From assembly GCF_001306135.1 (NCBI RefSeq), contig NZ_LGKP01000035.1:310001-374000 (forward strand): a stretch of DNA of 64,000 nucleotides, read 5' to 3'. Position numbers and translations under genes: made by a program. The stretch comes from Herpetosiphon geysericola (GTDB lineage: Bacteria > Chloroflexota > Chloroflexia > Chloroflexales > Herpetosiphonaceae). Shown one piece after another: positions 341 to 47,172 of this stretch (position 1 is its first letter; each line of letters begins with the position of its first letter). The notes under the pieces were generated by a model, which was not told the DNA's origin, ran no database searches, and worked only from the letters and a program-made list of their open reading frames with translations.

Positions 341-405
341 TGTCAGAGGGCAAAAATCAAAAGGCAAAAAGTTTTGACTTCTGCCTTTTGACTTTTGATT
401 TTGAC
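341..405. repeat. Heptad tract with inverted arms between dnaJ and clpC
   Basis: The tract begins on the base after the dnaJ stop codon. The left arm reads in sevens as tgtcaga, gggcaaa, aatcaaa, aggcaaa. The right arm is the inverted form, ttttgac, ttctgcc, ttttgac, ttttgat. The two arms can fold into an imperfect A/T-rich hairpin that ends just before the clpC ribosome binding site. The same words recur at 8344-8369 and 26440-26542. Confidence 0.75.
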
Positions 406-418
406 AAAGGGTTTTTAT

Positions 419-6107: not shown

Positions 6108-8330
6108 CTAGATCATACTGACTAATTGCCAGAGAATAACCAGAAACGTGATTAAAGCAATTGCACCAATCAGCATAAACAACCAGCGGCTGCGTTGCTG
6201 GCGGTTGGTATATAAGCGTGGGGCTGGCGCTTCGCGAATGGTATTATCTGCTGGCGGCATGGGCATGGTTGGCGCGCTAGTTGGTTCTGGCGCTTTGGCC
6301 ACTGCTGCTGGCGTTGGCGGTAAGGGCTGCACCCGCCGTTTGGTTGGCTCCGATGGTGCTTTTTCATACTTATTGCTGGGGGTTGGCGGCGTTGGCAACG
6401 ATTCTGCTGGCAGCACGTTGGCAACTGGCTGGCTGGCAGTTTTGGGCGCAGTTGATTCAGTCGCCACAACCACTGGGGTTGGGGTTGAAATCGCTGGCTG
6501 GCTTGGGCTATTGACTGCTTGGTCAAGCACGGGCGTAATTTTGCTGCGCACATATTCGCCAGTGCCAGTTGATGAAATGCCTAAGGCTGCTTCCAAGGCT
6601 TCTGCCAAATCCAAACCAGTTGGGAAGCGCTCGCTGGGATCTTTGGCCAGCATTTTGAGAATTACGGCCTCTAGTTGAGCCGAAATTGCTGGATTGATCG
6701 AGCGCGGCGCTTTGGGCGGCTCGGCCATATGCAGCATGGCAATCGCCAGCGGATCAGCATCGTCAAACGGTACTTGGCCCGTCCAAAGCTCATACAAAAT
6801 CACGCCCAAGCTGTAGAGGTCGGTTTGGGGCACAACTTTGGCCGAGGAAATTGCTTGCTCTGGCGCGACATAATGTGGCGAGCCGAAAATCTCGCCGCGC
6901 GTGCCAACCTCGGTCAACAAGGCCAAGCCAAAGTCGGCCAAAATCGCCCGCCCATCTTTGTTGATCATAATGTTCGATGGCTTGACATCACGATGGATGA
7001 CGCCTTTGCTATGCGCATAATCCAACGCCGCGCAGACTTCGCGAATCATGCGGCACAGCGTGCGGGGTGTCCATTCTTGGGCGCTGGTTCGCACCTGCTC
7101 AATCACTTTGTGCAGATTTTGGCCTTCGATATACTCCATCACCATATACAGCAAGCCATACGAATCGCCATAGTGATAGAGCCGCACAATGTTGGGATGT
7201 TCGAGCTGGGCGATGGCTTGGGCTTCGCGATTGAAGCGCTCGGCGTAGCTTTGATCGTTGCGGAAGGGCGTGTCGATAACTTTAATCGCAACCGTGCGAT
7301 TGAGCCGTATATCAACCCCACGGAAGATGTTGGCCATGCCGCCGCGTCCAAGCAAGGCCTCAACCCGATAGCCATCGAGATATTGGCCTTCCAACGGTTT
7401 TTCTGGGTCGAAGGTGGCAAAGCCCAAGGCTCCTGGCTGCGATGGTGGGCGCACGCCGGGCGCAACATTTGCTGCCGCCGTAATTTGATGACTGCCTGTG
7501 ATACCCAAGGCTTGTTCTAGGGCCGCAATCAGATCTGCGCCCGTTTGAAAGCGCTCTGCTGGTGCTTTGGCCAAGGCTTTGAGCAAGACCGCCGCCGTTG
7601 CATCGTTGAGCTTGGGGTTTTTTTCTTGCGGCGCTGGCGGAGCTTGGGTAATGTGTTGCAAGGCCACGCTGGTCGCCGATGGATCATCAAACGGCACCGA
7701 GCCAGTCAACAATTCATACAAAATCACGCCCAAGGCATACAAATCCGACTGCGGAATCGCATCGGATGAGCGGCGCGCCTGTTCGGGCGCAATATAGTGA
7801 GCAGTGCCAAAAACTTCGCCTTGCGAGCCAAGCTGGGTATCGAGCGCCAAGCCAAAATCCATCAACACCACTCGTTGGTCGTGGGCAACCATAATGTTTG
7901 AGGGCTTGATGTCGCGGTGAATAACGCCCTTTTTGTGGGCATAATCGAGTGCGCTGGCCACACTACGGGTAATGTGCATCACTGCGCTATGCGGCAACAG
8001 GCTACTGGTGCTGGTATATTGGGCGAGCACTTTGGAAAGATCAACGCCATCGATATACTCCATCACAAAATAATAGAGATTATCGGTATCGTCGGCGTAG
8101 TAGATTTGCACGATATTTTCGTGCCGCCAGGTGGCGATGGCGCGAGCTTCGCGCACAAAACGCTCGGCGTAGCTTGGCACTTGACGATAGCGCCCATCGA
8201 TCACCTTGATCGCCACAGGCCGATCAAGCTTGACATCGTGGCCGACGTAGATCAAGCCCATGCCACCACGGCCTAGAACTCGGTCGATGCGAAAGTTGGC
8301 GAGTTGTTTTCCAAGCAGATCATCAGTCAT
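6108..8330 (-). CDS. Membrane-anchored tandem Ser/Thr protein kinase (two PknB-type domains)
   Basis: A 740-residue protein with two complete Hanks-type kinase domains in a row. Domain 1 (about 12-270) has GRGGMG, the ATP lysine in VAIKVID (about residue 42), HRDIKPSN (catalytic Asp about 140), DFG and GTAHYIAPE. Domain 2 (about 315-585) repeats these as GRGGMA, VAIKVID, HRDVKPSN, DFG and GSPHYVAPE. A Pro/Ala/Thr-rich linker of over 100 residues leads to one C-terminal membrane helix (WLFMLIGAIALITFLVILW) with a very short tail, so nearly all of the protein faces the cytoplasm and no extracellular sensor is present. Both domains keep every catalytic residue I can check. The gene stands alone; no cognate phosphatase is adjacent. 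Confidence 0.93.
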   Translation of the reverse strand: MTDDLLGKQLANFRIDRVLGRGGMGLIYVGHDVKLDRPVAIKVIDGRYRQVPSYAERFVREARAIATWRHENIVQIYYADDTDNLYYFVMEYIDGVDLSKVLAQYTSTSSLLPHSAVMHITRSVASALDYAHKKGVIHRDIKPSNIMVAHDQRVVLMDFGLALDTQLGSQGEVFGTAHYIAPEQARRSSDAIPQSDLYALGVILYELLTGSVPFDDPSATSVALQHITQAPPAPQEKNPKLNDATAAVLLKALAKAPAERFQTGADLIAALEQALGITGSHQITAAANVAPGVRPPSQPGALGFATFDPEKPLEGQYLDGYRVEALLGRGGMANIFRGVDIRLNRTVAIKVIDTPFRNDQSYAERFNREAQAIAQLEHPNIVRLYHYGDSYGLLYMVMEYIEGQNLHKVIEQVRTSAQEWTPRTLCRMIREVCAALDYAHSKGVIHRDVKPSNIMINKDGRAILADFGLALLTEVGTRGEIFGSPHYVAPEQAISSAKVVPQTDLYSLGVILYELWTGQVPFDDADPLAIAMLHMAEPPKAPRSINPAISAQLEAVILKMLAKDPSERFPTGLDLAEALEAALGISSTGTGEYVRSKITPVLDQAVNSPSQPAISTPTPVVVATESTAPKTASQPVANVLPAESLPTPPTPSNKYEKAPSEPTKRRVQPLPPTPAAVAKAPEPTSAPTMPMPPADNTIREAPAPRLYTNRQQRSRWLFMLIGAIALITFLVILWQLVSMI

Positions 8331-8684
8331 AGTGTGCCAAGCTTAAAATCAAAAGTCAAAAGGCAGAACGGCTTGATCGAGTGTGTGATAGAGATATTGC
8401 TAATGTTGTAATGCCATAACGCATTGTAACCGCGAAGTTTTTTTGCCACCGATTGCACAGATTATTGGGATTGGGCTATTGGCTATAGTTTTTAGCCACG
8501 AATGACATGAAACATTGTAACCGCGAAGAACACGAAGAGCGCGAAGCACAGGCTATTGGCTTTGGGTTTTAACTTGATCCTTCGCTTCTCTGCGCCTCTG
8601 CGTTAAAAAGATTGATCCACGAAGGAGATATGGCTCTTGGCTATAGGAGCAATGGTTGGCATTTCAAATCAATTTCATTAGCCT
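8331..8684. other. Intergenic region with short repeat words, no gene
   Basis: No convincing coding frame. It holds isolated pieces of the dispersed repeat families: aaaatcaaaagtcaaaaggc at 8345-8364, gggctattggctatag near 8473-8488, a nine-base-period run of the cgaagaaca type at 8519-8546, ggctattggctttggg at 8551-8566, and ctctgcgcctctgcgtt near 8588-8604. The kinase promoter should lie at the left end but no clear pair of hexamers was found. Confidence 0.6.
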
Positions 8685-8831
8685 AATCCCTGATCCCTAG
8701 CCCCCGACCCCTGATCCCCAAATCCTATGCTCTATGCTATGTGTTCTTCATCCCTCATCCTTCATCCTTCATAATTTTCTCTGTGCACCATATCCCCTAT
8801 GTTCTATGCTCTCTGCTCTATGTTCTTTACT
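8685..8831. repeat. Degenerate heptad tract, 21 units in unbroken phase
   Basis: Counting in sevens from 8685 gives aatccct, gatccct, agccccc, gacccct, gatcccc, aaatcct, atgctct, atgctat, gtgttct, tcatccc, tcatcct, tcatcct, tcataat, and then, after three weaker units, ctatgtt, ctatgct, ctctgct, ctatgtt, ctttact. The word changes twice but the seven-base register does not slip over 147 bases. The tract runs into the stop codon (8827-8829) of the minus-strand gene. Confidence 0.8.
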
Positions 8832-11226
8832 GGCGACTATGGCGGCCTTGGGTGATTTTGGTCAATTCGCTAATAAAGCGATTGAGACCATTGACATAGC
8901 TTTCAAGATAATCGTTGGCAATCCGGCGCGCCAAGTCGCGTCGCCCGGCATTGATAAACAGCCCAACATGCGGGCGGAAGTCGCGTAGCGAAACGTGCAT
9001 CACGCCATTGGCATCGGTAATGACGCCCCAAGCCAAGGTTTTCTTTTCGTTATCGTCTTTGGCGGTAATAAAGCGCGAGAGCGAGCTGGTGTCGGCGACC
9101 GCGCCAACATTTGAAAGCACTTCACGGCCTTTGATCAAATCGTTGAGCACATCGAATTTGCCAGGAATCGCATCGAGCAAGCGTTGCAAGGCCATTGGCA
9201 CATGCGCCAACAAGCGCAACGCTCCCGACGAAGTACTTTCGCCCGATTGGGCAATATCTTTGGCGCGGGCTGAAACCTCGCCAAAACCAGCGATTGTGGC
9301 CAAATAATGCTTTTGGGTGGCCTCGAAGGTATCCCAGACTTCGGCTCGCCACTCTTGGCGCGCCTGATCAAGCAAACTCAACGCTCGTTCGTGCAACTTT
9401 GTAATCTCAAGTTCTTCGAGTGGAACCTCGAAGGTCATGGGATGTAGCCGATCGCTGGGGTTGGGAATGCTGCCATCAACCGGAATTAAAATCGCTGGAT
9501 TGCTGAGCGATTCCTCAAACGCCGTGATTGTTGCTTCAACTGCTGGCTTGAGCTGCGGATCGTTGGCTGCTTCTTGCAACGAGGCCTGCAACTCAGGATT
9601 TGGCTTGTAGGAAACAGCATGGATGGCGCGATAGAGCACCAGAATATCATTAACTGTGATGCGAATTTGGTCGTTGCGTTGCTTGAAGAGCTTGCGCAAA
9701 TCCAATATTTTCTTCAAATCCAGCCCGATTGATTCGGCACTGGCTTCGGCCACGATTTTGGGGCTATCAGCTAAGATCTGCTTTTCTTCCTCATTTAGCT
9801 CGATATTTGGTGCATATGGCCGCACCGTGCCCGCAACTGGAGCTGGTTGACCGCGCAAATAGACCGCCCAAGCCAAGGCTTCGAGGGTCATAATTTCGGC
9901 GACTGCTGAACCCCAAGCGCCATCAAAAAAGATATGCGATTGGTCAAAGACCATACTTGAGCCTGTGTCGATCAAGGTCAAGCCGTGGTCGCCAAGCGCG
10001 CGTTCGGTTAGGCGTACTTCGGCCAAGGGCAAATGGCGTGGGCGGCCATCTGCGTTAAACCAAATTGGCGCACAGCGCAGCGCTTCGAGCTGTTGGCTGG
10101 TTTCAGGCCGCAGCTTGCCCAAAATGCTTGGCAAACTTGCGCGCTTGGTGGTTGCCAAGGGAATCAACGAGGTTGGCGCATGATTGGCGGGGCTGGCAAG
10201 TAGCGCGGCAATCTGGCTGCGCACATTGCTCACATCGTTGGGGCGGGTGCTATTGGGTGCACAGGCAGGAATCAAATAATAATGACCACGCAAGATTAAG
10301 CCAATATGCCAGCTTTGGCGCGGCAAGGCCACCATATTTTCGTTATAGGGCGTGGGTTCAAGGTAGGCTGCCAACGACATTTGGCGTTGATAGGCAGGCA
10401 GCGCAATTTCGCGGGCGCGTTGAAATTGCTTGCCCCAGCGTTCGCGCAGCTCTTTGGGCAAATCGCGGGTCGATTCGGCCATAAATTCATCAAATTTTCG
10501 TTTGCGATAGCTGGCGTAGGTCTCTTGCGATTGCACATCTGGGCCACGGCCATAGGGGCGTTGGCGTTCCCATTGGCTATAGAGGTCGGCAAATTGGCGC
10601 GTTTCAGGATTGACCTTGGTTAAATCGCGCAGCAAAGCCAACGAAACCCGTTCGCGCCATTCATTTTCAAGCAATTCAGGGTAGCTGTGGAGAATATGAA
10701 TTGCCGCCATGACCCAAGCGGTCATGCGGTCGATCGGCGTTAAATTAATGTTATGATCGCTGAGTGTTTCATCGAAGCCGATGGTTTCGTTGGCGTGGCG
10801 GGCGGTATCTTCGCGCAAGGCATAGCCAACATAAAATTGCCATGTGCCTTCGGGAAAGGCATCTTGAGGATCTTTGCCTGCCAATTCGAGCAGCTTTTGA
10901 TAGCCCCAAATAACCGCAGCCGGCCCAGCAAAGAAGGTGCTAAACACTGCTCGATCAAGCGCTTGCTCAACGCCGCGAAACAGCAAATTGACATCGCGTT
11001 TAATCACATTGCCAGCAGGGCGACGGCCTGTGAGCTTGGCCATGCCACTGAGAATAACCCCAGGCACATTGCCAGCTGGCACGACCCGCGAGATTTGGTC
11101 AACAACGGCATCGATCTCCGGCAACGACAACCGCGACACCTGACTGATTGAGATTGAACGTGCAATACTCCGCAAGTTATCAGCAGTCAAATGCGAGGCA
11201 GCGGTAAACTGTTGCTGCGAATCCAT
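8827..11226 (-). CDS. Large conserved-looking hypothetical protein, 799 residues
   Basis: I do not recognise the family. The protein has no signal peptide and only one moderately hydrophobic stretch (around residues 95-115, FFAGPAAVIWGYQKLLELAG). The N-terminal third is helical with a charged, His-bearing segment ALREDTARHANETIGFDE; the central part contains an aromatic segment SWHIGLILRGHYYLIPAC, and the last 300 residues are helical with acidic patches. The start is placed at the ATG at 11226, preceded by GGATGGGG; an in-frame ATG nine codons upstream gives an unlikely Trp/Cys-rich leader. It is a single-gene unit whose stop codon is embedded in a heptad tract. Coding is well supported by the length and by codon use like its neighbours. 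Confidence 0.75.
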   Translation of the reverse strand: MDSQQQFTAASHLTADNLRSIARSISISQVSRLSLPEIDAVVDQISRVVPAGNVPGVILSGMAKLTGRRPAGNVIKRDVNLLFRGVEQALDRAVFSTFFAGPAAVIWGYQKLLELAGKDPQDAFPEGTWQFYVGYALREDTARHANETIGFDETLSDHNINLTPIDRMTAWVMAAIHILHSYPELLENEWRERVSLALLRDLTKVNPETRQFADLYSQWERQRPYGRGPDVQSQETYASYRKRKFDEFMAESTRDLPKELRERWGKQFQRAREIALPAYQRQMSLAAYLEPTPYNENMVALPRQSWHIGLILRGHYYLIPACAPNSTRPNDVSNVRSQIAALLASPANHAPTSLIPLATTKRASLPSILGKLRPETSQQLEALRCAPIWFNADGRPRHLPLAEVRLTERALGDHGLTLIDTGSSMVFDQSHIFFDGAWGSAVAEIMTLEALAWAVYLRGQPAPVAGTVRPYAPNIELNEEEKQILADSPKIVAEASAESIGLDLKKILDLRKLFKQRNDQIRITVNDILVLYRAIHAVSYKPNPELQASLQEAANDPQLKPAVEATITAFEESLSNPAILIPVDGSIPNPSDRLHPMTFEVPLEELEITKLHERALSLLDQARQEWRAEVWDTFEATQKHYLATIAGFGEVSARAKDIAQSGESTSSGALRLLAHVPMALQRLLDAIPGKFDVLNDLIKGREVLSNVGAVADTSSLSRFITAKDDNEKKTLAWGVITDANGVMHVSLRDFRPHVGLFINAGRRDLARRIANDYLESYVNGLNRFISELTKITQGRHSRQ

Positions 11227-11867
11227 GATACCCCATCCACACCACATGCCCAATGGCTAAAAAAATTAATATGCTTATGATAGAGGAGCCTAGGCAGGCT
11301 GTCAAAAGCTTAAAAAGTTGCCCGTTTTGACGCGTTGCGCTGTTATGCTAATCCTACTATATTTTATCGTTTTTTGAAAGCCCACGCTGAAAGGATGAAG
11401 GATGAGGAGCGTTTTATAATTTTTGCTACGAATGGGTGAGTTGGCTATTGGCTTTGGGCTATCGGAAATACGATTGGAAAATCAAAAACCAATAGCCAAC
11501 AGCCTTCAGCAAATAGCTATTACGCAGTTAGCGCCCAACGAATGGCAGATAGCTGCGCTGTTGGCCGTTGGCGGTGTTGCTGATACTCAAGGGTCATCGT
11601 TGATCATTGGTTTGAATGAGCAGAGCATATTGGTTAGATAAGTTTGAGTTGCTGCAAGGCCGTACGATAGGCTGATTCGCTACCATAATTAATAATCTAA
11701 ATTAAGCTGTTATCGTGCTAAAGGTCTACATCCTGCAAGCAAATGCTAGACTGATGCTGAGCGAAGCCAAGCTTAATCGCCCAATACACCTAAGAACTAG
11801 CAGTTGATCAATGGATAGTACTATGCTTAATCGGCGTAATGAATGCTAGAATTGAAAGAGCCAGCCA
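11227..11867. other. Divergent intergenic region with heptad remnants, no gene
   Basis: This 640-base gap separates divergent genes. It contains aaggatg heptads at 11391-11411 and ggctatt-type heptads with inverted arms at 11443-11519. A 72-codon open frame across 11423-11641 follows the repeat words and is not credible as a gene. The remainder shows no tRNA, hairpin or clear promoter to the eye. Confidence 0.55.
11443..11519. repeat. Heptad words ggctatt and inverted atagcca arms
   Basis: The left arm reads ggctatt, ggctttg, ggctatc (11443-11463); the right arm reads aaaacca, atagcca, acagcct, tcagcaa, atagcta (11485-11519). The arms are roughly complementary and could pair across about 20 bases. 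Confidence 0.6.
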
Positions 11868-20654: not shown

Positions 20655-23600
20655 ATGCGCCGTTTCAGTCACGTCCGTTTATTAGGAGTCGTTGTGTTGC
20701 TCCTAAGTCTGTTGGCCCAGCAGCCGAGCGCCAATAGTTTGGCCAAGCCAGCCCTGCTTCCGGTGCCAGTCCCTGAAGTTGAATGGAACGACGTTTGGCA
20801 AAACGCCCACGATGTATCTGATGATTGTAATTGGTCAAGCATAAGCGTGTGCGAGATTACTGGCGATTTGAGCACTGGCAGCGATCTCGATTGGTATAAA
20901 ATTAGCGTTCGACCAGCCACAACTTTGGCGATTAGCTTAACCGATACCTTTGGCGATTATCAGGTGGCGCTTTTTTATGATTTGGGCCAGCCGATTACCC
21001 AAACTGGCCATGTTTCACTTGGCAACTTGAACGCCATCGGCAACCTGAACGCCATCGGCAACTTGAACGCCATCGGCAACCTGAACGCGATTGGCAATTT
21101 GAACGCCATCGGCAACCTGAACGCGATTGGCAATTTGAACGCCATCGGCAACCTGAACGCGATTGGCGCAAATGGCTATTCCGATGCCAGCATCAACAGC
21201 TTTGTTTGGACACCTGGCTTTTATTATCTGCTCGTCTATCCACTTGACGACGATCAATCAGGCGATTACCAGCTTGCGATTGAAGCGGCCTTCGACCCCA
21301 ACTTGACCAAACCTGCACCGATTCCGTTTAACATTGTGCAAAATGAGCCACCAGCTTGTAAGCGCGCATTGTACATCACCCATAGCGACTATCTTGATAT
21401 TCACCAGACATTTGCGCCCTACAACACTAGTATTTATACCGAACTGCTTGGTTTTTCCGATAATATCAATGATCCTAATACCAATGGCTTGGTGATCGAT
21501 TTGGCCAATATTCCGTGGATTCAGCCGAGTAACGCCTTGAGTGATGCCTCGACCGAGTGGAATGCCCATCGCACAAATCCATTCTATGCTAATCGGTTGG
21601 CAGAGGGTGTGCATCATCTCATTACCCAATATGCGCGGCGTTGCCCGATGCTGCGCTATATCACGATTGTTGGTGGCGACACGGTTGTACCCTTCTATCG
21701 CGTGCCCGATGAAACTGTGATTGCCAATGAAAGCGATTATTTGGCTAGCTCAAAGATCGATCCAAATAGCTTTACCGCCAGCAGCCTGAAATACAAAACC
21801 ATCTTGACCGATAACATTTACGGCGCTATCAAGCCAATTCCTTATCGTGGCCGCCAGTTGTGGGTGCCTGAATTGAGCGTTGGGCGCTTGGTCGAAAGCT
21901 CAGCTGCGATTCATCTTTATTTGAAAAAACTCAATATCTATACTGGTTTCCAAAGCCAAAGTGCCATTATATTAGGGCCTACATTGCAAGATAGTAGTTT
22001 GGTGACGGGCTACGATTTCTTGACCGACCAAGCGCAGATGGTTTCAAACACCTTGACCATGCTGACTGGGTTGCGGCCAATTGGCTTAATTAACGACAGC
22101 TGGAATGCTACCGACCTCTTGCAAACTTGGCTGCCAAATATTGCCAATAACACTTCTAAATCGCCGTATCCAGCCCAATCGATTAACGCACACTTTACCC
22201 ACTATCAGGCAATTCCTGCCAACTTTGCCACCTCAAGCGATGTTGTGAGCGCCTCGATTCTGTATAATCACCCGTTTGCAACGCTTGAAAATGCCTATCA
22301 AATTCGCCGTTTAGGCTACAGCGTTGGTTGTCACTCGGGCTTTAGCGTCGCTGATAGTGATGTAGTGAGCGGCAGTGATGCGGCAATCGATTTTCCTCAA
22401 GCCTATATCAAACAGCATGGCACTTGGGTTGGCAATACTGGCTTTGGCTATGGCGATAGCGATTTGGTGGGCTATAGCGAAAAACTTATGGCCCAATTTA
22501 CCAATGAAATTGGCCGCGAATGGAAAAATCTATCAGGTTTGTATGAAGGCATGCCGGTTGGCTATGGCTTAGTGCGTGCCAAACGAGCTTACTTGCGCGA
22601 AGGCACGCCGGGTACATTCAGCGTTTACGACGAAAAAGTGCTTTTGCAATCGACCTTGTATGGTATGCCGATGGTGCGCGTGAAAGTGCCAAATCCAATT
22701 CCCTTCCCGCCAAACGATCGCCAAGATGATGGCTGTTTGACCTGTTCGCCCAATGTAGCGCAGCGAGCAACCGTAACTGATCAGGCAATTGATCGCGATC
22801 TTAGCTTCAACATTAGCTATACAATCGCCCAAAATACCAGCCGCGGCAAGATTATTTCTGCTCAAGCGACGGTGGTTAATGATACTGAAGGCTTGCTGAC
22901 AGGTCGCACATTTAATAGCACGATGGTCAATGCAGCTGGCTTGCCATCATTGCCCAACTTTAATATTCCGCTTTCGCTGACCGATAGCTTTGGCGAGCAA
23001 CGCTTGCAAGGCGTTCAGCTGCTTGGCGGTACCACTGCAACCACAGCGACCTTTAATCCGCTGGTTACCCGTTTGATTACTGATGAAATTTATCTGACCC
23101 ACGAACCAAGTTTTGATTTTGCTGATCGTTGGTATCCCGACCAGCCATTTAGCTATAGTGTGTTCGAGAGCGATAATCTCGACGATAACGGCCCCTTCAA
23201 CCAAGATCGGCGTTTCTCGCAGCTTTTATTGACCCCAACGCAATTCAAAGGCACGGCCAACGGCGGCGAATTACGCCAATTTAGCAGCATTACGCTACGG
23301 CTTAAATATTTGAGCGATGGTGCTGATGACGATTTGCTCAACGATAGTTTCGAGCCAATCGTGCGCGATACCCAACGCACCAGCGATGGTAAAATCCGCG
23401 CAATGGTGATCGAACGCGATGACGACGGCCCAGGCGATGAAATTGAAGCAGAGATGTTGGTCAAAACCAGCACTGGCGTTTGGCAAAGCATCAGCATGAA
23501 CACCTTCCAAGTTGGCACGACCGAGCGCTGGCAAATTTCAGCCAGCCTGCCAACGACCGCCGCTCAACCACTGCAACTGATGATTCAGGTTGAAGACGAG

Positions 23601-23916: not shown

Positions 23917-25308
23917 ATGAGATATATGAATAAGAATTTACGAAATGTGCCAAAAGGTGCAATTATTACTGGTATTGCTACAATAATTGCTGCAATAATT
24001 ACTGCAATTATTGGTATTACCCCTTTTATAAACATTGATAAATCCAGTATAAATTTTTTAGTCCGCGTCATTAATAGAAGTAATGGAAATACTGTAGATA
24101 ATGCTAAGATAATTATAATCTCAAAAGGAAAAAGTGTATCAGGAATTACAGACAATAATGGTATATCCGATTTTAGCTTGGATTTTATTTCAAACGGAGA
24201 TATTATGGAAATAAATGTAATATATGAAAATATTGAGATTGTGAGGGAAAATGCGGTTATTGTAAATAACCAGACCTATGATATACAAATTGATGTTCCT
24301 GATTCAAATAATATAGATAGAGAATCGAAGAGCGATAAATTCGAAGTGCTGCCCACCGAAATTAGTATAATATCAACAGACATCCCACCAACAGATATTC
24401 CACCAACAGATATTCCACCAACAGATATTCCACCAACAGACATCCCACCAACAGATATTCCACCAACAGATATTCCACCAACAGATATTCCACCAAAAAT
24501 CCCAAGTATTGTATTTGTATCAAATAGAGATGGTAATGATGATATTTATCTAACAGATGAACATGAAACGTTTAGTATGAATTTAACAAATAGCCCAAAT
24601 GATATATATAATGGACATCCTAGTTGGTCTCCTGATGGAAAAAATATAGTCTTTCATTCTAATATGGATGATCCAGGCGGCCATAATTCAGAAATATATA
24701 TAATTTCGGTTGAAGGGAATAATCTTCGTAGATTAACTAATCATTTGGAATGGGATGGTCAACCATCTTGGTCTCCTGATGGAAGGTATATAGCATTTGA
24801 ATCTAAACGAGATGGGAAATTTGAAATATTTTTATATGATCTTAATAATGATACAATAAATAAAATAAATACCAATATGTCTGCTGGTTATCCATCATGG
24901 TCACCTAATGGTAAATATATAGCTTTTCATTCCAAAGATTTTTCTGGAATGAATATATATATGATTAATATGGAAAATAATATAATTACTCCTATAACTA
25001 TGGATGAATTTGATAATTGGATGCCGTCATGGTCTAAAAATAGTGAAAATATTATATTTTCATCTAATAAAGATGGAGTAAGAGATATTTATTCTTTGAA
25101 TCTTGTCGATAAAAATATCAAGAAGGTAATACCTACCAATGAAGACGATTGGTGGCCAGTTACACTATCTCCAGATGGAACAAAAATAATTTTTTGTTCC
25201 TACAACTCTGGATTTTGGAAATTATATATAGCTAATATAGATGGATCTAATATCAGGGTCTTTGCTGAAAGTAATGGAGATACTAAATGGGCTGTATGGA
25301 AAAATTAA
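23917..25308 (+). CDS. AT-rich membrane-anchored beta-propeller (TolB/PD40-like) protein
   Basis: A 463-residue protein in a block of DNA much richer in A and T than its neighbours. The N-terminus has one strong membrane helix (GAIITGIATIIAAIITAIIG), then a beta-sandwich of the carboxypeptidase-regulatory type (about 45-125), eight TDIPP repeats (about 154-193), and a propeller of five or six PD40 blades with motifs such as GHPSWSPDGKNIVFHS, GQPSWSPDGRYIAFES and GYPSWSPNGKYIAFHS. Such propellers bind proteins or ligands outside the membrane; no enzyme motif is seen. The start (23917, or the ATG at 23926) has no clear ribosome binding site. Base composition and codons ending in A or T suggest recent transfer. 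Confidence 0.85.
   Translation: MRYMNKNLRNVPKGAIITGIATIIAAIITAIIGITPFINIDKSSINFLVRVINRSNGNTVDNAKIIIISKGKSVSGITDNNGISDFSLDFISNGDIMEINVIYENIEIVRENAVIVNNQTYDIQIDVPDSNNIDRESKSDKFEVLPTEISIISTDIPPTDIPPTDIPPTDIPPTDIPPTDIPPTDIPPTDIPPKIPSIVFVSNRDGNDDIYLTDEHETFSMNLTNSPNDIYNGHPSWSPDGKNIVFHSNMDDPGGHNSEIYIISVEGNNLRRLTNHLEWDGQPSWSPDGRYIAFESKRDGKFEIFLYDLNNDTINKINTNMSAGYPSWSPNGKYIAFHSKDFSGMNIYMINMENNIITPITMDEFDNWMPSWSKNSENIIFSSNKDGVRDIYSLNLVDKNIKKVIPTNEDDWWPVTLSPDGTKIIFCSYNSGFWKLYIANIDGSNIRVFAESNGDTKWAVWKN
24376..24495 (+). repeat. Eight tandem 15-base repeats encoding TDIPP
   Basis: Eight copies of ACAGATATTCCACCA or its ACAGACATC variant run without gaps. The variant appears in copies 1 and 5, so the array is two identical blocks of four copies, a sign of a 60-base duplication. 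Confidence 0.95.
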
Positions 25309-26439: not shown

Positions 26440-26542
26440 AATCAAAAGGCAGAAATCAAAAGTCAAAAACTGTAGAAGAGATCAACAAATTATTGACTCT
26501 CCCTTCTATTTTTGACTTTTGACTTTTGCCCTCTGACTTTGC
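26440..26542. repeat. Heptad tract with inverted arms between moxR-like and VWA genes
   Basis: The tract starts on the base after the stop codon. The left arm reads aatcaaa, aggcaga, aatcaaa, agtcaaa (26440-26467); the right arm reads ttttgac, ttttgac, ttttgcc, ctctgac (26510-26537). The arms can pair over about 20 bases, leaving a loop of about 40. The right arm ends four bases before the AAGGGGGG ribosome binding site of the next gene. It has the same architecture as 341-405. Confidence 0.8.
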
Positions 26543-26555
26543 AAGGGGGGTTCCG

Positions 26556-46959: not shown

Positions 46960-47172
46960 AGCACACAGAACATAGAGCATAGAGCATAGCTGCCTTATGC
47001 GTATGTTCGGCTCCTTGTTACTAACTAGATGGGGATCGGGGATCGGTTGTTGGGGATCGGCAATTAAGCTAACGCAATCCTTCGTGTTCTTCGTGGCTAA
47101 GAAGCCCAAATCTTGGCCCAACCACCGATCCCAATTTCATCCTTCATCCCTCATCCTTCATCCTTTGTGCTA
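46960..47172. repeat. Heptad tract between the HEAT-protein stop and the PIG-L start
   Basis: From 46960 the plus strand reads agcacac, agaacat, agagcat, agagcat, then after weaker units tggggat, cggggat, cggttgt, tggggat (47030-47057). At 47136-47163 it reads ttcatcc, ttcatcc, ctcatcc, ttcatcc. It fills the whole gap: one end touches the PIG-L start region and the other the stop codon of the HEAT-repeat gene (47170-47172). A piece ccttcgtgttcttcgtgg near 47079-47096 belongs to the cgaagaaca family. Confidence 0.75.

Follow-up and report, generated by a model that had tools for sequence, protein, structure and literature searches.

How does a bacterial spacer come to hold several different seven-base words set one behind the other, and what do such strings represent? 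The question is raised by the tract at 8685-8831 of the window, a stretch of 64,000 nucleotides (G000:C12:310001-374000) from the 6.14 Mb genome of Herpetosiphon geysericola. The first-pass annotation had read the tract as a single heptad-based element, in which the unit drifts from word to word while the register is kept exactly. Its seven-base periodicity was confirmed: at lag 7, 86 of 140 positions match (61%), whereas 2000 dinucleotide shuffles gave 42.7 (30%) on average and never more than 65, and among the lags tested only 7 and its multiples stand out. The exact register did not hold. The class A word CTATGYT starts at phase 5 (8725 and 8732) but at phase 0 further on (8797-8818), which amounts to a shift of 2 bases; at the joins between words, adjacent units agree at just 2-3 of 7 bases, and around 8762-8783 the lag-7 signal is almost absent. 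Counting 21 seven-base units says nothing about register, because any 147 bases divide into 21 sevens, and the first unit, reported as gatccct, is AATCCCT. Rather than drifting, the words belong to discrete classes that are reused throughout the genome, and the tract is a mosaic of these separate classes. It does end in a stop codon, as had been noted: TTA at 8827-8829 is the reverse complement of TAA and belongs to a minus-strand gene (8827-11253). Folding revealed no structure of the tract on either strand.

For the wider analysis we sampled 854 kb (14%) of the window genome, referred to as G000, and less of other genomes, and called genes with our own hexamer model. We distinguished five heptad classes by regular expressions that were picked after inspecting the data. 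As read on the purine strand, these are:

Class A, purine strand: AGARCAK
Class B, purine strand: RGGATGA (with ATTATGA)
Class C, purine strand: ARAA(GT/GG/AT)C
Class D, purine strand: RGGGRTY
Class E, purine strand: GGCTWTN

Beside the heptads stand nonamer words, for example CGAAGAACA, GCCACAGAT and CGCAGAGGC, which recur in many islands. Successive words of the same class are mostly in register (A 121/122, B 100/102, C 88/93, D 58/60 and E 94/105 in the 854 kb of G000). For joins between classes, 54 of 170 distinct cases fall into the best single register, with 40 expected and a control maximum of 45; a phase common to different classes is weak, but not nil. Of the view that several words are strung in one register, the mixture of words thus stands, while the exact common register gives way to this weak shared phase. 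The phase shift within the tract and the between-class join counts together rule out a single drifting element in one register. That the words recur elsewhere was borne out: TTCATCCTTCATCC, taken from the tract, has 197 copies genome-wide and its reversed control none, and a profile scan returned hundreds of further matching loci. Heptads also proved to be almost confined to intergenic DNA, which holds 265 of the 276 arrays; this location, and 7 not being a multiple of 3, rule out a coding role. Intergenic tracts in G000 have a period of 7 (n=70) or 9 (n=17), with none at periods 4, 5, 6, 8, 10 or 11, and 7, 9 and the multiple 14 are the sole periods that rise above the rest in intergenic DNA.

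The tract is one half of a larger island, which fills the spacer between a kinase gene and a gene for an 808-aa protein. The features of this region, together with two further repeat loci of the window, are as follows:

6108-8330, minus strand: kinase gene
8331-8826, unstranded: complete repeat island, which occupies the spacer from the kinase gene to the 808-aa gene
8345-8364, plus strand: class C purine array (AAAATCAAAAGTCAAAAGGC), left outer arm
8445-8463, unstranded: nonamer G (GCCACCGATTGCACAGATT)
8470-8488, plus strand: class E heptads (TTGGGCTATTGGCTATAG)
8521-8548, plus strand: nonamer F (CCGCGAAGAACACGAAGAGCGCGAAGC), period 9
8551-8567, plus strand: class E heptads
8585-8604, minus strand: nonamer H (CTTCTCTGCGCCTCTGCGTT)
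8630-8648, plus strand: class E heptads
8682-8719, minus strand: class D array in pyrimidine reading (CCTGATC...)
8725-8747, minus strand: class A array, first block, phase 5
8746-8772, minus strand: class B array (TTCATCC)
8797-8826, minus strand: class A array, second block, phase 0, touching the stop codon of the gene at 8827-11253
8827-11253, minus strand: 808-aa gene
11432-11542, unstranded: class E foldback (GGCTATTGGCTTTGGG ... CCAATAGCCAACAGCC)
46967-47169, unstranded: second composite island of the window, A, D followed by b

The island thus has the composition C E E E followed by d b a. The tract corresponds to the 'd b a' half, which is the pyrimidine half, and its final word abuts the stop codon of the 808-aa gene. 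The protein encoded by this gene is conserved in Herpetosiphonaceae and had no Pfam match, and an Rfam search of the window gave no match to a known RNA family. Orthologous spacers in six Herpetosiphon genomes measure 142-499 nt and contain variable heptads and nonamers. The class C array at 8345-8364 keeps its place beside the gene in all congeners except G002, where the spacer (L056 1359-1500) carries a class E foldback (GGCTATAGGCTATAGG ... CCTGTAGTCTATAGCC) in place of the mixed island. In G005, an ~80-nt block of the right half is duplicated. In G007 and G008, each from a further genus of the family, 31-41 nt separate this gene pair, and repeats are absent.

The partner half across the spacer, as well as the polarity, class order and hairpins of the islands, had been absent from the first-pass annotation. 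Arrays of purine words (on the plus strand) lie to the left and pyrimidine arrays to the right, regardless of gene directions. Exactly one switch, always from purine to pyrimidine, is seen in 39 of 42 two-strand islands, and the reverse switch alone in none of the 42; a table of half (left, right) by strand reads 98, 37 / 30, 99 (Fisher p=4e-16). The polarity holds in ++, --, +- and -+ spacers taken separately and was replicated in G003 (22/25), in G005 (6/6) and also in G001. From the outer to the inner side, the classes follow the order {A,B,C}, D, E (AD 18:1, AE 25:0, BE 22:5, CE 22:1, DE 7:0), with no fixed order among A, B and C, and this order was replicated in G003. Median distances of the outermost arrays are 8.5-10 nt to stop codons, as against 104-130 nt to start codons, and an array of the opposite orientation is hardly ever found near a gene. 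The period-9 repeats are separate intergenic repeats, seen at 8521-8604 of the window and genome-wide, and CGAAG has the same polarity as the heptads.

A tail-to-tail arrangement of this kind recalls mobile DNA. Drosophila foldback (FB) transposons carry inverted arms of short tandem repeats around a variable loop, and their arm and loop layout is similar; here, no transposase, copies or target duplications were found. Each island could be one or more nested foldback or MITE-like elements with terminal inverted repeats made of tandem heptads, which a transposase acting in trans put into the spacers. Such elements would bring the polarity in whole tail-to-tail units, two of which follow each other in one long G003 spacer, and are consistent with the island-free spacers of 31-41 nt in the other genera and with the innermost class being the same on both sides beyond chance (15/39 versus 9.5 expected, p=0.02). 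The tail-to-tail arrays also supply inverted terminal repeats, and 23 of 38 two-strand islands fold better than arm-composition-preserving shuffles (z < -2; median over all -2.85). The remaining 15 have z > -2; because the arms of many composite islands do not pair, pairing is unable to explain the polarity everywhere. Against mobile elements, the loops are site-unique and single-copy, so that no copies of one element are visible, and neither an interior shared by several copies nor clean empty sites or target duplications were found in the orthologue pairs compared. G003, G005 and G063 lack the Y1/RAYT family of hairpin-binding transposases, and in G000 and G001 it is interrupted. Replacement at nearly identical edges, as described below, is not transposition-like. 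We consider an origin of the islands from mobile elements unlikely. Two narrower versions were rejected outright: mobilisation by RAYT/REP, since presence of the Y1 transposase is uncorrelated with carriers, and hairpins as copies of one mobile cassette, which is ruled out by the unique loops.

Comparison with the sister species G003 revealed that the positions of islands outlast their words. Each of the 24 spacers that hold an island in G000 also holds one in G003, compared with 6 of 88 other spacers (p=3e-19), and the words at shared slots are often unlike, for example BADG versus CHEefHef. Addresses are kept and words are replaced. The same is seen in a subset of short islands between co-transcribed genes, which form a stable hairpin with the same word on both arms. 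Three of these, in spacers between co-directional genes, could be followed across the genus (the names dnaJ, rplK and rplA are our reading of the translations; clpB is from Pfam):

341-418, plus strand: dnaJ-clpB spacer hairpin, class C arms; class B arms in G002-G005
26440-26555, plus strand: MoxR-VWA spacer hairpin, class C arms; class B arms in G002-G005
G000:C12:417425-417630 (L225-L228): rplK-rplA spacer hairpin, C-arm or B-arm by species

At all three, the arms are of class C in G000 and G001 and of class B in G002, G003 and G005; G004 has class B arms at both sites sampled there. The two arms of each hairpin switch class together. This partition contradicts the species tree, ((G000,G003),G005),((G001,G002),G004), because the G000/G003 sister pair is fully supported, as is the clade split. 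At dnaJ-clpB, the flanks are 98% identical between G000 and G003 and 94-95% between G000 and G001, whereas the hairpin is 58% identical in the first pair and 96% in the second; MoxR-VWA and rplK-rplA show the same pattern of flank versus hairpin. Clade-specific flank bases reach to ~3-15 nt from the hairpin edges. Each form of the dnaJ-clpB hairpin is 96-100% conserved between species, in spacers that are otherwise variable, and B and C forms both fold strongly (z -3.4 to -6.6). B-form loops are homologous to one another at every site, and so are the C-form loops at rplK-rplA, where loops are ~85-95 nt long, while for the two C loops at MoxR-VWA homology was not demonstrable. Between B and C forms, the loops are not homologous at MoxR-VWA and of doubtful homology at rplK-rplA, where one sister pair gave a local z=4; rewriting of the arms around a retained loop was rejected on these grounds. 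No second copy of the searched simple-hairpin loops was found in the genus.

Same-class tail-to-tail hairpins follow this division beyond the three sites, with Cc:Bb counts in the sampled sequence of 7:0 in G000, 3:0 in G001, 0:7 or more in G003 and 0:3 in G005. One might conclude that each genome possesses a trans-acting, word-specific system with a seven-base ruler for writing or maintaining the heptads, that at least two dialects (B and C) exist, and that dialects change genome-wide and in concert. All simple intercistronic hairpin arms of one genome would then agree, and changes would be concerted because a hairpin has to fit whichever writer or binding protein is in use. The case for dialects is built on three loci sharing the partition {G000,G001} versus {G002,G003,G005, and G004 where tested} against the species tree, and on Cc:Bb counts of 10:0 in G000 and G001 versus 0:10 in G003 and G005. 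With three shared sites and ~20 hairpins as its basis, we regard this extension as rather improbable.

How the islands change over shorter distances bears on a simpler proposal. The tract had been expected to evolve by substitution inside units and by gain or loss of whole units, and both occur: substitutions amount to 14% in tracts versus 7% in other intergenic DNA (~2x), and among well-aligned indels of at least 3 bases, whole units (multiples of 7) account for 5/8 in tracts versus 4/27 elsewhere. Islands grow and shrink by whole units and by whole blocks. Between sister species, however, most of the change consists of whole blocks or hairpins giving way to others at the same address, rather than of drift by single units. 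Ordinary simple-sequence slippage, meaning local expansion and mutation aided by a polymerase footprint of ~7 bases, without a dedicated system or a function, would produce the whole-unit indels and the raised substitution rate, and heptamers are over-represented in many bacteria, for which the footprint idea has been published (PMC4692102). Yet slippage predicts private words for each tract, not a common word list. Already strained by the polarity, which it does not explain, it likewise leaves the class order, the concordant change of two arms and the absence of tracts from 273 kb of G007 without explanation. As a sufficient cause, slippage has in our view little probability.

An equally low probability attaches to the notion that the arrays are selected RNA elements, namely terminators, attenuators or stabilisers in 3'-UTRs and leaders, or protein-binding heptads, which would owe their polarity to gene ends. 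Arrays do begin ~10 nt past stop codons, the intercistronic hairpins are strongly folded, and the two dnaJ-clpB forms are each conserved across species to the degree given above. However, divergent spacers, in which no terminator is expected, are as array-dense per kilobase as the others, sister species differ through replacement of words and of whole islands, and the tract at 8685-8831 is unstructured and missing in G002. Read as RNA elements, the hairpins make sense, whereas the composite islands of divergent spacers do not. Intrinsic terminators as a general explanation are ruled out by the equal array density in divergent spacers and by the tract having no hairpin.

We are left with a repeat-writing process, to which we give about an even chance: the tract would be the pyrimidine half of a composite tail-to-tail (foldback-like) island, lying in a non-functional part of the spacer. 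The islands draw on a small word list of five heptad classes and nonamers, with fixed polarity and outer-to-inner order. These strict rules, combined with different words at the same addresses, point to a specific repeat-writing process. The process would be lineage-specific and proceed in steps of 7 bases, with a second step of 9. Its writer may add or replace words at the facing ends of a foldback or a broken spacer, and a new word would thereby appear on both sides of the spacer, on opposite strands; one-unit slippage and recombination between islands would then edit the result. In most spacers, including 8331-8826, the repeats would be tolerated filler that reaches stop codons and stays ~100 nt from start codons. 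In intercistronic spacers, selection on the hairpin itself is probable, with a role in processing, stability or attenuation of the operon mRNA. The unique loops weigh against a writer, as no donor copy or mobile cassette is visible; simple addition of arms at a break would not be expected to leave unique loops in between, and this counts against the explanation that we prefer. A telomere-fusion-like healing of breaks, with purine words placed on both facing 3' ends before joining, gives the right polarity and does not predict unique loops; we mention it as an idea only.

Cyanobacteria, Xanthomonas and Beggiatoaceae are known to carry heptad repeats. The GGGNATC heptads of Xanthomonas and Nostoc share with the islands an intergenic location, period 7, many loci and the polarity, their purine strand being nearer the 5' neighbour 'irrespective of the ORFs orientation' (Rehm et al., 2015; PMC4692102), as we found here independently of gene direction. 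They resemble class D; however, GGGNATC is one word family, whereas Herpetosiphon combines five classes with nonamers in ordered composite islands and, unlike GGGNATC heptads, does not avoid divergent spacers. Runs of at least 3 G, which every GGGNATC unit contains, are found throughout class D and in some class B words, and are missing from A, C and E, so that quadruplex-level G-richness is limited to class D. STRR of cyanobacteria (Calothrix, Anabaena), with three different words in one genome as cited in PMC4692102, are likewise dispersed, degenerate tandem heptads in spacers; their words differ from those of Herpetosiphon, and the composite islands depart from the single consensus word per array that is typical of tandem heptanucleotide repeats. 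In the STRR literature searched, we found no account of joining, order or polarity for different words. The TAACTGA direct repeats (MacGregor, 2015; PMC4679880) are also intergenic heptamer arrays with a patchy distribution across phyla, but they consist of one word and lie mostly just upstream of start codons, which the Herpetosiphon arrays avoid. Closest to the hairpins is the P6b stem of the Nostoc trnL intron, built of Class I or Class II heptads and exchanged as a whole stem against the species tree (PMC4476775, PMC3488679). Both systems have paired arms of degenerate heptads in two alternative classes and wholesale replacement, seen here at the three sites and not at 8685-8831; P6b is one locus inside a ribozyme, whereas in Herpetosiphon at least three protein-operon spacers agree on the class per genome. 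An intrastrand triplex motif, a short dispersed intergenic repeat (Holder et al., 2015; PMC4666352), resembles a G/C-rich hairpin (CCCTCACCCC...GGGGTGAGGG) that lies inside or beside some heptad islands (the L055 spacer; the G003 orthologue of G000:C12:267456-268075); it is without period 7, and so a neighbour of the heptads rather than the same thing.

Already known, therefore, are heptad repeats as such, their polarity in Xanthomonas and Nostoc, and the replacement of one class by another at a single Nostoc hairpin, while mixed ordered islands and concordance between loci appear to be new: we found no report of Herpetosiphon repeats, ordered mixed-word islands or between-locus agreement in the literature searched, which left most subscription journals outside. 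There is no agreed account of why heptads, among all unit lengths, are over-represented in several bacterial phyla, and each paper found deals with a single word at a time. Herpetosiphon offers several words in one genome under common rules of polarity, order, kept addresses and paired arm replacement. Together with an apparently repeat-free relative in the same family, this opens the question to tests by comparative genomics and genetics, namely what writers have that G007 lacks, and what sets the word; at the dnaJ-clpB and rplK-rplA spacers, the hairpins also provide natural variants with two states.

Between the genera sampled, occurrence is all-or-none. G007, of another genus in the family of Herpetosiphon, has no tracts at any period in 273 kb. 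G063, from a sister family, has 71 period-7 intergenic tracts in 400 kb, mostly of other words (ACAGGGT, AGATTGC, GGGGGTT, AAAAGGT) and with the same polarity as Herpetosiphon (p=0.001; 5/5 switches). Among 91 genomes of the class, class A triplets occur in Herpetosiphon only, those of class B also in several genera of the family to which G063 belongs, and those of class C also in a few genomes. The reversed control word, in the form of AAGTAGG heptads, is abundant in G029, G037 and G079 (family f3) and in G068; other lineages therefore use other heptad words. Outside the phylum, a short MAG contig of Pyrinomonadaceae (Acidobacteriota; L088:2823-3000) carries a mixed B/A foldback of the same polarity, its words resembling those of Herpetosiphon, just upstream of a start codon, a lead only, which may reflect a word list shared across phyla or contamination. 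The window also contains strong longer tandem repeats, with 36/18-nt units at 21019-21167 and 15-nt units at 24374-24496, which are unrelated to the heptads.
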